Shown here piece after piece: positions 3,939-38,041 of a DNA stretch of 64,000 nucleotides. Within the stretch, counting starts at the first letter, position 1. Each line of letters opens with the position of its first letter. The notes under the pieces are model-generated. The model made no database searches. It was not told the origin of the DNA and saw nothing but the letters and a program-made list of their open reading frames with translations. The DNA comes from Neobacillus mesonae (GTDB taxonomy: Bacteria > Bacillota > Bacilli > Bacillales > Cytobacillaceae): the NCBI RefSeq assembly GCF_001636315.1, contig NZ_KV440949.1, positions 2,409,203 through 2,473,202 of the forward strand, in the 5' to 3' direction. The position numbers and the translations under genes were made by a program.

Positions 3939-3970
3939 AAACGACCTTAAATATGTGGGGTCGTTTTTGT
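3939..3970 (+). terminator. Terminator of ywjG
   Basis: AAACGACC (3939-3946) pairs with GGTCGTTT (3959-3966) and is followed by TTTG, 12 bases past the stop codon. Confidence 0.85.
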
Positions 3971-4075
3971 TTTGGCTATTTATTTGGGGATTTTGGCCAT
4001 TTTTTTATTGGTTTTGGTCATTTTCCTGAGCTTTTTGGCTATTTTTCTACCCCATTTGGCTAAATAGACATTTCC
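3970..4075. repeat. 21-bp-period word array A (TTTTGGCYATTT)
   Basis: The word TTTTGGCTATTT or a close variant recurs five times; its GG pairs begin at 3974, 3995, 4016, 4037 and 4058, exactly 21 bp apart, while the bases between differ. It occupies the tail-to-tail gap of ywjG and pyrG. The same word forms a second five-copy array at 14846-14945. Confidence 0.9.
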
Positions 4076-4092
4076 TGGAAACCAAACACAAC

Positions 4093-4123
4093 AAAAAGCC
4101 AGCTCCCCAAAAGAGAACCGGCC
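4093..4123 (-). terminator. Terminator of pyrG
   Basis: On the minus strand GCCGGTTCTC pairs, with three G-U wobbles, with GGGAGCTGGC and is followed by TTTTTGTTG. Confidence 0.7.
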
Positions 4124-4144
4124 AAAATCAAAATCCACCAATAT

Positions 4145-5740
4145 TTATTTTTCAATTGTCGCTTTAACAAATTCACGGAAAAGCGGCTGTGGACGCTGTG
4201 GTCTTGAGACGAATTCCGGATGGAACTGGGATGCCACGAACCATGGGTGATCCTTCAGCTCAATAATTTCCACTAAACGGCCGTCTGGGCTTGTCCCTGA
4301 GAACACAAAGCCTGCTTCTTCCATTTCTTGACGGTAATGATTATTAAATTCATAACGATGGCGGTGGCGCTCGTAAACCACTTTTTCACTGTAAGCGGCA
4401 AACGCCTTCGTGCCCTCTGCTAAGCGGCAAGGGTAAAGACCTAAGCGCAATGTTCCGCCTAAATCCTCTACATCCTTTTGCTCAGGCAGCAAATCGATCA
4501 TTGGGTGCTTTGTATCCGGCACAAATTCAGATGAATGAGCATCAGCATAGCCAAGCACGTTGCGGGCATACTCAATCGTTGCCAGCTGCATGCCTAAGCA
4601 GATGCCAAGGAACGGCTTCTTATTTTCACGAGCATAGCGAGTTGCTTCAATTTTCCCTTCCACACCACGGTCACCGAATCCGCCTGGAACTAGGACGCCA
4701 TCAACATCATCCAGCAGTTCAGCCACATTTTCACGAGTCACACAATCAGCGTTAATCCATTTTACTTCCACATCGGTATCAAATGCATAACCGGCATGCT
4801 TTAGTGCCTCTACAACAGAAATATAGGCATCCTGAAGCTCAACATACTTTCCGACAAGACCGATACGCGTTTTGCCTGACAAGTTTAACACCTTGTCGAC
4901 CAATTTCTTCCACTCCGTCATATCCGGATCTTGGGTCACTAATTTCAAATGATCGCAAACGATCTGGTCCATATGCTGTTCCTGCAATGCAAGCGGGATA
5001 GAATAAAGCGTATCGGCATCCTGACATTCGATTACCGCTTTATTATCGATATCACAGAACAAAGCAATTTTATCCTTCATATCCTGGGAAATTGGCATCT
5101 CGGTACGAACCACAATAATATTTGGCTGAATGCCAAGGCTGCGCAGTTCTTTTACACTATGCTGAGTCGGCTTCGTCTTCATTTCACCGGCAGCTTTGAT
5201 ATAAGGAACAAGCGTACAGTGAATGTACATCACATTGTCACGGCCAATATCGCTCTTGATTTGACGGATTGCCTCTAAGAACGGCAGTGACTCGATATCG
5301 CCCACGGTTCCGCCGATTTCCGTAATGACTACATCGGCATTTGTTTCTTTGCCTGCACGGAAAACACGGTCTTTAATTTCGTTGGTAATATGCGGGATTA
5401 CCTGAACAGTTCCGCCTAAATAATCGCCGCGGCGCTCTTTACGAAGTACTGTAGAATAGATTTTCCCAGTTGTAACGTTGCTATATTTGTTTAAATTAAT
5501 GTCGATAAAGCGCTCATAGTGTCCTAAATCCAAATCAGTTTCAGCGCCGTCATCCGTCACGAACACTTCACCGTGCTGGTACGGGCTCATGGTTCCTGGG
5601 TCGACGTTAATGTACGGGTCAAATTTTTGAATCGTTACGTTCAAGCCGCGGTTTTTCAATAGTCTTCCTAAAGATGCAGCGGTAATCCCTTTTCCAAGCG
5701 AGGACACCACTCCGCCTGTTACAAAAATATACTTTGTCAT
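4145..5740 (-). CDS. pyrG: CTP synthase
   Basis: 531 residues, the usual length. It converts UTP to CTP using ATP and glutamine in the cytoplasm. The N-terminal amidoligase domain begins [17 protein letters not shown] with the P-loop-like segment. The C-terminal class I glutamine amidotransferase domain carries PGGFGDRG, the nucleophile Cys381 in FLGICLGMQ, and the His507/Glu509 pair in SQFHPEF. The ATG at 5738-5740 follows AAGGGGG. Expression should be controlled by CTP supply through the upstream leader (promoter and attenuator listed separately). The downstream neighbour is convergent ywjG. Confidence 0.98.
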
Positions 5741-5896
5741 AAAAAATTCCCCCTTAGGTTACAGTTTGTGCATTATTTAGAATGTTAAAGGGCTTTTTTG
5801 AAAAATTATTCTCAAAATGAAAAAAGCACAAGCACCCTTGCCAGGCGCTGGAGCTTGAAAATGAAAAAACCCCATTACGAGGGAGTTTTTTTCAAT

Positions 5897-5933
5897 AAAA
5901 AAGCGCTCCACTTCACATATCGTAAGGGAGCGC
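5897..5933 (-). terminator. pyrG leader attenuator
   Basis: In the pyrG leader, minus strand, GCGCTCC (5927-5933) pairs with GGAGCGC (5903-5909), followed by six U. The 5' arm is C/U-rich, so a run of extra G residues added at the transcript start could pair with it and prevent termination, the mechanism established for B. subtilis pyrG at low CTP. A further bidirectional hairpin (about 5869-5895) lies between this site and the gene. Confidence 0.85.
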
Positions 5934-5963
5934 ATATTTGTAAATACGAATTGTCCTTTTTAA

Positions 5964-6006
5964 GGAGCCCAAACAAGATATTACAAGGTGGCGAAATAAA
6001 AGTCAA
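5964..6006 (-). promoter_or_regulatory. pyrG promoter with GGGCTCC start site
   Basis: On the minus strand TTGACT (6001-6006), 17 bp, TAATAT (5978-5983), 7 bp, then GGGCTCC starting at 5970. GGGCUC is the initially transcribed sequence needed for CTP-sensitive reiterative G addition in B. subtilis pyrG. The promoter lies just upstream of the rpoE stop (which ends at 6030), so pyrG is transcribed separately from rpoE. Confidence 0.85.
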
Positions 6007-36377: not shown

Positions 36378-36686
36378 TTAAAAATCAAACAACGAATCCC
36401 CGTTTGCTTCATCATCTAGTTCCAGTTTTTTCGGCTGAAAGGTGGATACCGGCTGTGATATAGGTATAGATACCCCCTGCTGCTGTACCGCAACAGGCAC
36501 CTGCCGGCTAATGACCGGTTCATTCCATGATTCCGCCGTCTTCAACTGGTTTTCTTCAAGTATCAACTCGCATAATATTTTAATAGAGTGAACTCTTTCT
36601 CGCAAGCTTTCCTGCTTGGGAGCCGCCTTTGCCTGGTTTAATTCCTCTTCCATCTTCGCCAACAGCTTTTGCACCGAAATATTCAC
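36378..36686 (-). CDS. ywdI: YwdI family protein
   Basis: 102 residues from GTG. The N-terminal helical part ISVQKLLAKMEEELNQ...RERVHSIKILCELIL is the YwdI family signature; the C-terminal half is Gln/Pro/Val-rich and probably disordered. The function is unknown. The GTG at 36684-36686 has AGGTGG five bases upstream, while the in-frame ATG at 36702-36704 has none, so GTG is preferred. Confidence 0.85.
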   Translation of the reverse strand: MNISVQKLLAKMEEELNQAKAAPKQESLRERVHSIKILCELILEENQLKTAESWNEPVISRQVPVAVQQQGVSIPISQPVSTFQPKKLELDDEANGDSLFDF

Positions 36687-36776
36687 AAACGCCACCTCTG
36701 CCATTCAATCTCGTCTCTATTCTACATGAGTATCGTCGTTTTTTCGAAAAATTAGACCCCTCGACATGTTTCCGCA

Positions 36777-36792
36777 TGTTTCACGTGGAACA
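36777..36792. promoter_or_regulatory. parS chromosome-partition site
   Basis: TGTTTCACGTGGAACA; its reverse complement TGTTCCACGTGAAACA matches the bacterial parS consensus TGTTNCACGTGAAACA at all fixed positions. ParB (Spo0J) loads here to organise and segregate the origin region. It lies in the 205-bp gap between ywdI and moeB, outside coding sequence. Confidence 0.9.
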
Positions 36793-36860
36793 TGTCGGAA
36801 TTTGGAAAAAGTATTCCCAAACTATTAGTTCCAGATTTAGCGTTGGATTTTAAGCCTAAA

Positions 36861-36887
36861 AAACCCGTACCTTAAAAGTACGAGTTT
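36861..36887 (-). terminator. Terminator of the moa/moe operon
   Basis: AAACTCGTAC pairs with GTACGGGTTT, followed by TTTTAGG on the minus strand, 5 bp after the moeB stop. Confidence 0.82.
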
Positions 36888-36891
36888 ATTA

Positions 36892-37911
36892 TCATCCCAT
36901 AATCCGCTGATAAATCGTCTTGGCATGTGTTAAATCCTTTGTTCCATGAATAAGGGCGCGGCCGTCTTGAAAAATAACCATCCGCTCTCCGCCCATTTCA
37001 ACCGACAGCAAATACGGGTTTCCTTTTACCTTATAGCCAAGTGAGCATAGCTGGGCAGAAAGCTGCTCTAAGGAAATCTCCCCTGCCTTTGCGGGACGGA
37101 TCTGCACAGTATCCCTGCCGCAAAGCACTGTTGTCTTTGTCATATTCTCACGGTCCAAATATGGATATGTCCGCTCCTCACCGCAGGACAAACAGCCGGC
37201 AAACTTAGCCTTCGACATTTTCATGCTTGAGTATTGATTGCGCCACAAGTCAAAGCTGACAAACGAAGTCCGGACAGCCTCCCAATCCTCTACAAGCATC
37301 TTCAACGCTTCGGCTGTCTGGTGGGAAATCACCATTTGCACCGTCGGCGAAATAATTCCGCCGGTATCGCAGGTCATCCCTTGCAGCGGAATTGTGCGGA
37401 GCAAACAATTTAGACATGGTGTTTTTCCCGGTATAATCGAAAAACTCATCCCGAAGCTGCCGACACACGCCCCGTAAATCCACGGAACATTATATTTTTG
37501 GGCAGCATCATTCATTGCCATCCGTGTTTCAAAATTATCAGTGGCATCGATCATGACGTTTACATCAGGGACCAGCTCTTCCAGCATTTCTGGTGTTGCG
37601 TCGCCAATGATTGCGCGTACTTCCACGTCCGAATTAATCGCCTTTAGCCGTTTTTCTGCTGCCGCTGCTTTGGGAAGTTTTTCAGCCACATCCTCTTCGG
37701 TATACAGCTGCTGGCGCTGCAGATTGCTTGCCTCTACATAATCGCGGTCCACAATCGTGATTTTGCCGACTCCCGCGCGTGCGAGGATTTCAGCATTTCC
37801 CGATCCCAGTGCGCCGGCGCCGATGATAAGGACATGCTTGCGGCTTATTTTCTCTTGGCCTTCTTTCCCAATCCCGGGGAAGAGCACTTGCCGTGAATAG
37901 CGTTCGTTCAT
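36892..37911 (-). CDS. moeB: Molybdopterin-synthase adenylyltransferase (MoeB/ThiF family)
   Basis: 339 residues. The E1-like fold is shown by RYSRQVLFPGIGKEGQEK, the ATP-binding IIGAGALGSGNAEIL, IDATDNFETR and two CxxC zinc pairs (CLNC and CLSC). It activates the C-terminal Gly-Gly of MoaD (or ThiS) as an adenylate. It has an extra C-terminal domain (about 255-339) as in other Bacillus members. As the last gene of the leftward moa/moe set beside moaD, MoaD is the likely partner. RBS AAAGGGGG. Confidence 0.93.
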   Translation of the reverse strand: MNERYSRQVLFPGIGKEGQEKISRKHVLIIGAGALGSGNAEILARAGVGKITIVDRDYVEASNLQRQQLYTEEDVAEKLPKAAAAEKRLKAINSDVEVRAIIGDATPEMLEELVPDVNVMIDATDNFETRMAMNDAAQKYNVPWIYGACVGSFGMSFSIIPGKTPCLNCLLRTIPLQGMTCDTGGIISPTVQMVISHQTAEALKMLVEDWEAVRTSFVSFDLWRNQYSSMKMSKAKFAGCLSCGEERTYPYLDRENMTKTTVLCGRDTVQIRPAKAGEISLEQLSAQLCSLGYKVKGNPYLLSVEMGGERMVIFQDGRALIHGTKDLTHAKTIYQRIMG

Positions 37912-37991
37912 TTTTTATCCCCCTTTTGAAAGGAAAACTCGCCGGGTTGGCGAGCTTTTAAGAAGTTTTCTATTTATTGGCGTCTTTTATA

Positions 37992-38041
37992 TTAGCGGAT
38001 TTTTCTCTTTTATTAGCGAATTTCTCTGTTATATTAGCGAT
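37992..38041. repeat. 21-bp-period word array I (TATTAGCGAA)
   Basis: Three copies of TTAGCG at 37992, 38013 and 38034, exactly 21 bp apart, between moaD and moeB. The word is the reverse complement of array G's. Confidence 0.88.

Follow-up and report, generated by a model that had tools for sequence, protein, structure and literature searches.

Arrays of short words in the window

What are the short words that recur every 21 bp in gaps between the genes of Neobacillus mesonae, and what keeps them there? The window, the whole stretch of DNA analysed, comprises 64,000 nt (assembly GCF_001636315.1, contig NZ_KV440949.1, forward-strand positions 2,409,203-2,473,202). An earlier note on this DNA had described eight intergenic arrays, with a step of 21 bp and a few odd steps. 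All eight were found in the window, and a word scan allowing up to 2 mismatches, from which the copies and steps below were counted, gave the same picture.

3970..4063, minus strand: 5 copies of TTTTGGCTAT (family AATAGCCAAAAC), every step 21 bp
12345..12459, minus strand: 6 copies of ATATCTACAC (family TGTAGATA), every step 21 bp
13610..13954, plus strand: about 15 degenerate copies of CGCNGATAT, steps mostly 21 bp
14847..14940, minus strand: 5 copies of TTTTGGCTAT, every step 21 bp
16416..16569, plus strand: 8 copies of CGACAATTG, steps 21,21,21,19,21,21,21
20394..20485, plus strand: 5 copies of TCGCAGATA, steps 21,20,21,21
21243..21294, plus strand: 3 copies of TTCGCTAATA, both steps 21 bp
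37990..38041, minus strand: 3 copies of TTCGCTAATA, both steps 21 bp

The array at 3970..4063 is flanked by facing terminator-like hairpins, one of pyrG and one of the gene opposite, which we take to be ywjG-like. The gap holding 12345..12459 separates two acyl-CoA dehydrogenase-like genes, and its word family is common to several Neobacillus species at that place. The degenerate array at 13610..13954 gave 16 hits at up to 2 mismatches, two of them only 8 bp apart, with steps mostly of 21 or 42 and also of 19, 20 and 23. An inverted copy of the word stands at the end of 14847..14940, and 16416..16569 contains an 82-bp unit of four words, found twice. The array at 20394..20485 occupies the convergent gap between a cardiolipin synthase-like gene and an SspH-family gene; 21243..21294 lies upstream of a small gene (20778-21227) and downstream of an agmatinase gene, and 37990..38041 adjoins a ThiF-family gene.

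The two-turn step exceeds chance and is helically phased

In the intergenic DNA of the window, 8-mers matched at a distance of 21 bp in 41 cases, whereas 200 shuffles averaged 0.4 and reached 6 at most. Over 464 kb of the N. mesonae genome there were 216 such matches at 21 bp and 35 at 20 bp, the remaining distances from 10 to 40 bp giving at most 11 each. Searching that genome for TCGCTAATA-N9..15-TCGCTAATA placed 40 of 40 matches at exactly 21 bp, and the reversed control returned 0. The shuffle test that the earlier note had proposed was run on 864 kb of the 5.81 Mb genome and yielded 44 arrays of at least three copies versus 2 in one shuffle, a result that leaves its claim standing. The arrays are real and not a product of chance. 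The window is richer in them than the genome average: 29 stretches of the same genome, picked without regard to arrays, held 6 in 580 kb (2 when shuffled).

Spacing peaks fall at 20 or 21 bp and multiples, with none at 10-11 or 31-32. AA/TT steps show a power peak at 10.5 bp, above spacer-rotated controls (mean z 1.69, n=97, in N. mesonae and other Neobacillus stretches; mean z 0.99, n=50, at the named loci, where Neobacillus makes up 5 of the 80). This phasing is owed mostly to bases adjoining the words; with the 3 bp beside each word fixed, the spacer interior is only weakly phased (mean z 0.62 and 0.37). The earlier suggestion that the copies lie on one face of the helix agrees with the steps of 20 or 21, with the lack of a peak at half-integer turns and with the AA/TT power at 10.5 bp.

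Words recur between arrays and diverge more slowly than spacers

The earlier note gave each array its own word. This is wrong, as word families recur across many arrays. TTTTGGCTAT is common to the arrays at 3970 and 14846, TTCGCTAATA to those at 21245 and 37992 on opposite strands, and CGCNGATAT (array at 13631) and TCGCAGATA (array at 20395) are close to one family. Within the N. mesonae genome the same word was found in many arrays with unrelated spacers. Dispersal explains some of this sharing, as some main-family arrays belong to elements that carry inverted repeats at their ends. Words like TCGCTAATA are not palindromes, and all copies within an array point in one direction. Judged by eye, TCGCTAATA arrays lie on both strands across the chromosome, and a reading as marks of replication polarity was rejected on that ground.

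Duplicated units within 28 arrays differed at 95 of 1740 word positions (5.5%) versus 293 of 1798 spacer positions (16.3%); the spacers duplicate together with the words. A first pooled test of orthologous gaps gave 0.253 for words and 0.293 for spacers. Because arrays that are not homologous and a low-complexity coding stretch (pyrG|rpoE) had been mixed in, we used a stricter set, in which the aligned part was at least 80% identical, both species carried arrays and pyrG|rpoE was left out. The resulting 20 pairs of orthologous gaps, which share genomes and are therefore not independent, showed 81 differences in 889 word positions versus 212 in 842 spacer positions. Spacer divergence is thus about three times that of the words. 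With a single genome available in the collections for each species, this comparison, which the earlier note had proposed for related strains, was made between related species; the rates are unequal, and the selection on words that the note had suspected is borne out both by orthologous gaps and by duplicated units.

Arrays lie away from promoters and come and go between species

Divergent gaps, those that would hold promoters, are avoided (3 of 94, versus 158 of 758; p=4e-6), which supports an intergenic location away from promoters. Arrays were found in both orientations, and in co-directional gaps the main family leans to the sense strand (21 versus 10, p=0.07). A simple hairpin finder, applied in 50 tests at the ends of flanking genes, located a terminator before the array in 16, after it in 6 and none in 28, many of the last between co-directional genes.

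Arrays of at least four copies were present at 28 of 80 named loci, all 28 of them Bacillales by title; their words differ and their steps are 20 or 21, the step of 20 being used in several species. One gap compared over 55 genomes carried arrays in 12, with many different words. Six other Bacillota genomes together gave 5 arrays of at least three copies (one with at least four) versus 2 in a shuffle. For 15 of 20 N. mesonae arrays tried, N. kokaensis has the orthologous gap, and 5 of these 15 gaps lack an array of at least three copies, one of the five retaining two copies. Arrays come and go, and from these five gaps it follows that no single array is essential. In the acyl-CoA operon, both the location of the arrays and the type of word are preserved across several species.

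Among viral contigs, TCGCTAATA pairs occurred in 10, none of which had four or more copies of it, and TAGCCAAAA pairs in 39. Of these 39, five (L230, L240, L243, L251 and L263) contain a related word in sets of four copies, spaced mostly by 22 bp; in three contigs (L217, L234 and L237) other words form sets of that size.

A candidate role as rows of protein-binding sites

The explanation that we favour, and to which we give an even chance, is that each array is a series of protein-binding sites at a gene end, with one site at every second turn of the helix. Read from sequence, each array would offer 3 to 16 or more candidate sites for a sequence-specific DNA-binding protein, with one monomer or dimer per word of about 9-15 bp (roughly RRAWTCGCYRATAAA in the main family). 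The two-turn repeat would set neighbouring proteins on one face of the helix, where they could touch, and the helix-phased A/T tracts in and beside the word would probably bend the DNA the same way at each turn. Placement at gene ends and in co-directional gaps, and rarely in divergent ones, suggests a structural or insulating role over promoter control, perhaps as local chromatin or as a barrier to supercoils or read-through. Arrays grow by tandem duplication, of which two-word and four-word units are visible, and part of the main family (TCGCNNATAA) has dispersed, seemingly by way of elements some 205-280 bp long that end in inverted repeats. The data show the periodicity, the conserved words, the phasing to the helix, the placement at gene ends and this partial dispersal, whereas protein binding, co-operativity and curvature are inferences. 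No word matched a factor that we could name. A counter-point is that many words in one bacterial order would need many proteins, or one with shifting specificity.

A broader and rather unlikely version is that Bacillales share a general layer of helix-phased gene-end arrays, with words every two turns (20-21 bp) and a second class every five turns (52 bp) in the same genomes. Words would differ from one species and one locus to the next, with pitch, polarity and position retained, since they would evolve in step with rapidly changing DNA-binding proteins that structure or insulate the chromosome, as eukaryotic satellite DNA does with its own proteins.

Alternative explanations

The arrays could instead form the interior of small transposable elements of the non-autonomous kind, their words kept for a transposase or replication factor, or by youth, with no gain to the host. 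We regard this as possible though doubtful. At least one inverted-repeat end (a 17-bp motif, up to 3 mismatches) lies within 160 bp of 11 of 36 main-family arrays, versus 40 of 4000 random positions, a count biased in its own favour since the motif was derived from the same elements. Both ends are present at 4 of the 36, two of the four being orthologues; over all 59 arrays, 4 have both ends and 7 more have one. The elements so bounded measure about 205-280 bp, and two of them show A-rich direct repeats (by eye only), candidates for target-site duplications. Movement is further suggested by a 197-bp unit of N. mesonae that is 90% identical to an N. kokaensis copy at a non-orthologous place, and by one array missing from the orthologous N. 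kokaensis gap (284 versus 63 bp). Against this, 25 of 36 main-family arrays and all 23 of other families lack such an end, and the acyl-CoA operon arrays hold their place across species. A search of three genomes for the ISL3 transposase (PF01610) as a source of the elements gave no match in two (G000 and G064), and in the third (G071) its four loci showed no end motif. The sense lean and the 28 gene-end tests without a terminator leave some room for sites acting in RNA, the arrays being transcribed as 3' ends or intercistronic stretches in which the words would be recognised by an RNA-binding protein or would pair with another RNA. We consider this improbable: arrays occur in both orientations, 16 of the 22 terminators found precede the array, 3970..4063 sits between two facing ones, and nothing obvious in RNA would call for a DNA helical period or for AA/TT phasing. 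Nor was any fold detected in 32 arrays (mean z -0.5 and 0.0), or any Rfam family, at gathering or loose thresholds, in the arrays scanned (the window and seven loci).

Slippage during replication, favouring a unit close to two turns and followed by decay, would account for the 42 and 82 bp units within arrays, which speak of repeated duplication, and for array presence that varies between species. It is very improbable, as the same duplicated units differ unequally in words and spacers, one word stands in many arrays amid unrelated spacers, and divergent gaps are avoided; strictly neutral repeats were rejected on the word-versus-spacer comparison. The divisibility of 21 by three would suit coding repeats of 7 residues, which have practically no chance and were rejected, since the frame is lost at steps of 19, 20 and 23 and several species use 20.

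Comparison with known systems and significance

If the arrays are protein-bound, a large spore-forming group would have a chromosome feature that is easily missed, because its spelling differs per species and repeat finders seek sequence, not pitch. Binding would also lead one to ask how gene ends are marked in bacteria, and the exact two-turn step and conserved words would make the protein findable by a simple pull-down. Should they mostly be internal parts of small mobile elements, they would make it practicable to study how transposition disperses binding sites.

Like the earlier note, which knew of no named element of this type, we found none in the open-licence literature searched, also by the words themselves; among the matches listed, no description of such arrays appeared. 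Plasmid replication iterons are short direct repeats of a replicon-specific word at a step of about two helical turns, in 3-7 copies to which a single protein binds in adjacent positions. The arrays resemble them as direct repeats of one word at that step, but they are many per chromosome, with several words per genome; those of the window adjoin housekeeping genes (pyrG, acyl-CoA dehydrogenase, thiolase, agmatinase and similar) rather than an origin with a Rep gene, and the two arrays tried matched none of 72,556 plasmids. Some arrays resemble bacterial MITEs in their inverted-repeat ends (enclosing about 205-280 bp), dispersed copies and absence from an orthologous gap. Such ends belong to a subset of arrays, however, no parent transposase was found in the one family tried, and MITEs are not usually known to have a 21-bp array inside.

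REP/BIME elements are dispersed and intergenic, placed at gene ends rather than promoters. They are reported to serve as protein-binding sites (PMC2817692). The arrays are likewise intergenic and away from promoters, but REPs are palindromes alternating in orientation, whereas array words are non-palindromic and run in one direction at 20-21 bp. The TAACTGA repeats of Beggiatoaceae, cyanobacteria and Bacteroidetes (MacGregor 2015, PMC4679880) are direct repeats of a fixed heptamer, which in the main genome usually lie a short way before start codons. They too form many intergenic sets of one short word, but are not known to have a two-turn step. With CRISPR the arrays share a conserved repeat and a variable spacer, but the repeat here is 9-10 bp, the spacer is 11 bp, and spacers were duplicated along with the words.

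Arrays with a 21-bp step recur across the genome

The earlier note had described eight arrays in the window, each an intergenic row of one short word repeated about every 21 bp; all eight are present, with the steps as it stated. The periodicity is pronounced: in the intergenic DNA of the window 41 8-mers recur at 21 bp, compared with 0.4 in shuffles, and across 464 kb of the same genome (5.81 Mb in all) the recurring 8-mers number 11 at 19 bp, 35 at 20 bp, 216 at 21 bp and 2 at 22 bp, with 184 and 84 at the multiples of 42 and 63 bp. Chaining 10-mers at steps of 19-22, with two mismatches at most, detected 44 arrays in 864 kb of this genome, compared with two in one shuffle. 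Eleven of the 40 stretches taken from it had been picked for holding TCGCTAATA; the 29 chosen otherwise gave six arrays (five with at least four copies), compared with two and none in shuffles, indicating that arrays occur about once per 100 kb beyond the rich regions and that the window is rich.

The words fall into families

TCGCTAATA forms 40 pairs in the genome, every one exactly 21 bp apart, and its reversed control forms none there; such pairs are present in 4 of 60 genomes searched, including this one. The commonest (main) family reads TCGC-NN-ATAA, where NN is TA, CG, AG or TG depending on the array, and further families are AATAGCCAAAAC, TGTAGATA, CGACAATTG and TTTGACGGGTAAA. Words can thus differ between arrays, as had been claimed, but the proposal of an own word for each array fails, since the words form families. 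A stretch holding one TCGCTAATA array and one TCGCCGATAA array, used as query, gave in N. kokaensis at least 12 matches to the TCGCCGATAA array and none to the TCGCTAATA array, and in another genome, G071, a dozen to the TCGCTAATA array and two to the TCGCCGATAA array. A three-copy ATTCGCTAAT array near speB in N. kokaensis shows that the first word is not absent from that genome.

Outside the window, a 16-copy CGACAATTG array (locus L011, 9127-9445) consists of four 82-bp units and is related to the array at window position 16416. By eye, AATAGCCAAAAC-family arrays carry a conserved cap, approximately CCAGNWAATGTCTAATT, at one end (window 14931-14951), and the cap is common to two different gaps (hbd/thl and ywjG/pyrG) and several species.

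Arrays recur in other Bacillales

We counted arrays with at least four copies. They occur in 28 of 80 loci fetched via an IcmF-like protein (50 arrays; all 28 loci Bacillales by title), and in none of these loci when shuffled. The IcmF-like protein of the present genome is 96% identical to one in N. kokaensis, and on this ground we take the genome for a Neobacillus close to that species. Sixteen of 20 Neobacillus loci hold arrays (one, L131, is the same region as L021 of the 80). Six other Bacillota genomes, sampled in 20 stretches, gave arrays in one stretch, and 50 kb of E. coli gave none. The step is mostly 21 in Neobacillus and also 21 in Sporosarcina sp. JAI121; species with a step of 20 include Sporosarcina cyprini, Sporosarcina sp. 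ACRSL and Oceanobacillus halophilus.

The convergent pyrG-ywjG gap contains arrays of at least four copies in 12 of 55 genomes, with many different words, and in none after shuffling. The acyl-CoA operon retains TATCTACA-type words between its two dehydrogenase genes in several species, and its hbd/thl gap carries TTTTGGCTA, TTTTGGAC and TTTTGTAC, or CGACAGTAA in other species. The thl/fes gap carries CGACAATTG, CGCCAATTG or CGCTAATTG according to species. When 20 arrays from four regions were compared with N. kokaensis, the gap was not found for five; among the 15 gaps found, ten contain an array of some kind, its word frequently altered, and five lack an array of at least three copies (one retains two).

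Words are conserved and spacers drift

The claim that words are kept while spacers drift was supported, and with it that of selection on the words. In 20 pairs of orthologous gaps (aligned parts at least 80% identical, the pairs sharing genomes) differences fall at 81/889 word positions versus 212/842 spacer positions, and in duplicated units within 28 arrays at 95/1740 versus 293/1798; picking words by within-array similarity biases both tests toward words, the second more strongly. Within arrays identity is 0.90 for words and 0.42 for spacers, and in 22 of 32 arrays the conserved positions form a contiguous block (p<0.01), both results being helped by the way arrays were detected.

Arrays lie at gene ends and follow the helix

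The 94 arrays with at least four copies occupy co-directional gaps (36 and 31), convergent gaps (24) and divergent gaps (3), against a background in the same stretches of 261 and 222, 117, and 158, respectively. Divergent gaps are avoided (p=4e-6) and convergent gaps mildly preferred (p=0.018). Main-family words are sense in 21 cases and antisense in 10 (p=0.07). A terminator-like hairpin of a flanking gene lay before the array in 16 tests and after it in six; none was found in 28 tests.

AA/TT steps are phased with the helix, their strongest period being 10.5 bp (power 1.57 versus 0.61 at 21 bp) in 98 arrays of this genome and the Neobacillus stretches, and 10-10.5 bp in the 50 arrays of the 80 loci, five of these loci being Neobacillus. 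Rotating the spacers reduces this power (mean z 1.69 and 0.99, respectively). With three bases beside each word held fixed the effect is weak (mean z 0.62 and 0.37), indicating that the phasing resides mostly in word-adjacent bases. The main-family profile is approximately RRAWTCGCYRATAAA (152 units) and leaves about six core bases free. No RNA fold of the arrays stands out; they probably act as DNA rather than RNA.

Binding sites, mobile elements or both

In the most likely reading, a protein would bind a word of one turn plus the flanking A-tracts. With copies every two turns, bound neighbours would touch along one face of bent DNA, suggesting co-operative binding, and arrays at gene ends could serve as structural or insulating sites. 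The analysis shows the period, the conserved words, the phasing and the placement; it leads by inference to binding, co-operativity, curvature and role. In the main rival reading, arrays form the interior of small mobile elements and have no role for the host. Two main-family arrays from different places in the genome are 78% identical over 175 bp, flanks included, and a 197-bp unit, ending in the inverted repeats AAGGCTGTTTTCGTAAA and AAGGCTCTTTTCTAAAA, has a 90% identical copy at a non-orthologous N. kokaensis site. Searching within 160 bp with up to three mismatches, we found such an end near 11 of 36 main-family arrays (both ends in four, two of them orthologues), a figure not independent of the elements that supplied the motif, and at 40 of 4000 random positions; arrays of other families gave 0/23. 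Both readings may hold together, with the element spreading the sites.

Iterons resemble the arrays in architecture, REP/BIME in placement and MITEs in a subset, each fit being incomplete. Searches of the open-licence literature turned up no description of such arrays; an earlier one, for instance in a subscription paper, is possible.

Other repeats and elements

A second class of constant pitch consists of tandem 52-bp units (51-53; about five helical turns) whose sequences differ between arrays, with two examples in the window:

22373-22980, array of 52-bp units
63165-63489, array of 52-bp units

This class numbers 35 arrays in 81 loci. Several units hold an inverted pair of words of about 10 bp, and inverted-repeat z exceeds 2 in 8 of 35 consensus units. 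Where both flanking genes were called (n=30), 12 gaps are convergent, 18 co-directional and none divergent.

At window 47467-47525 (minus strand) the Rfam model SECIS_3 (selenocysteine insertion) matches with 63.6 bits (cut-off 63), spanning the start of the ORF at 45102-47471 and the DNA just upstream; a gene coding for selenocysteine may lie here. Five viral contigs (L230, L240, L243, L251 and L263) carry four-copy sets resembling TAGCCAAAA, mostly at a 22-bp step.
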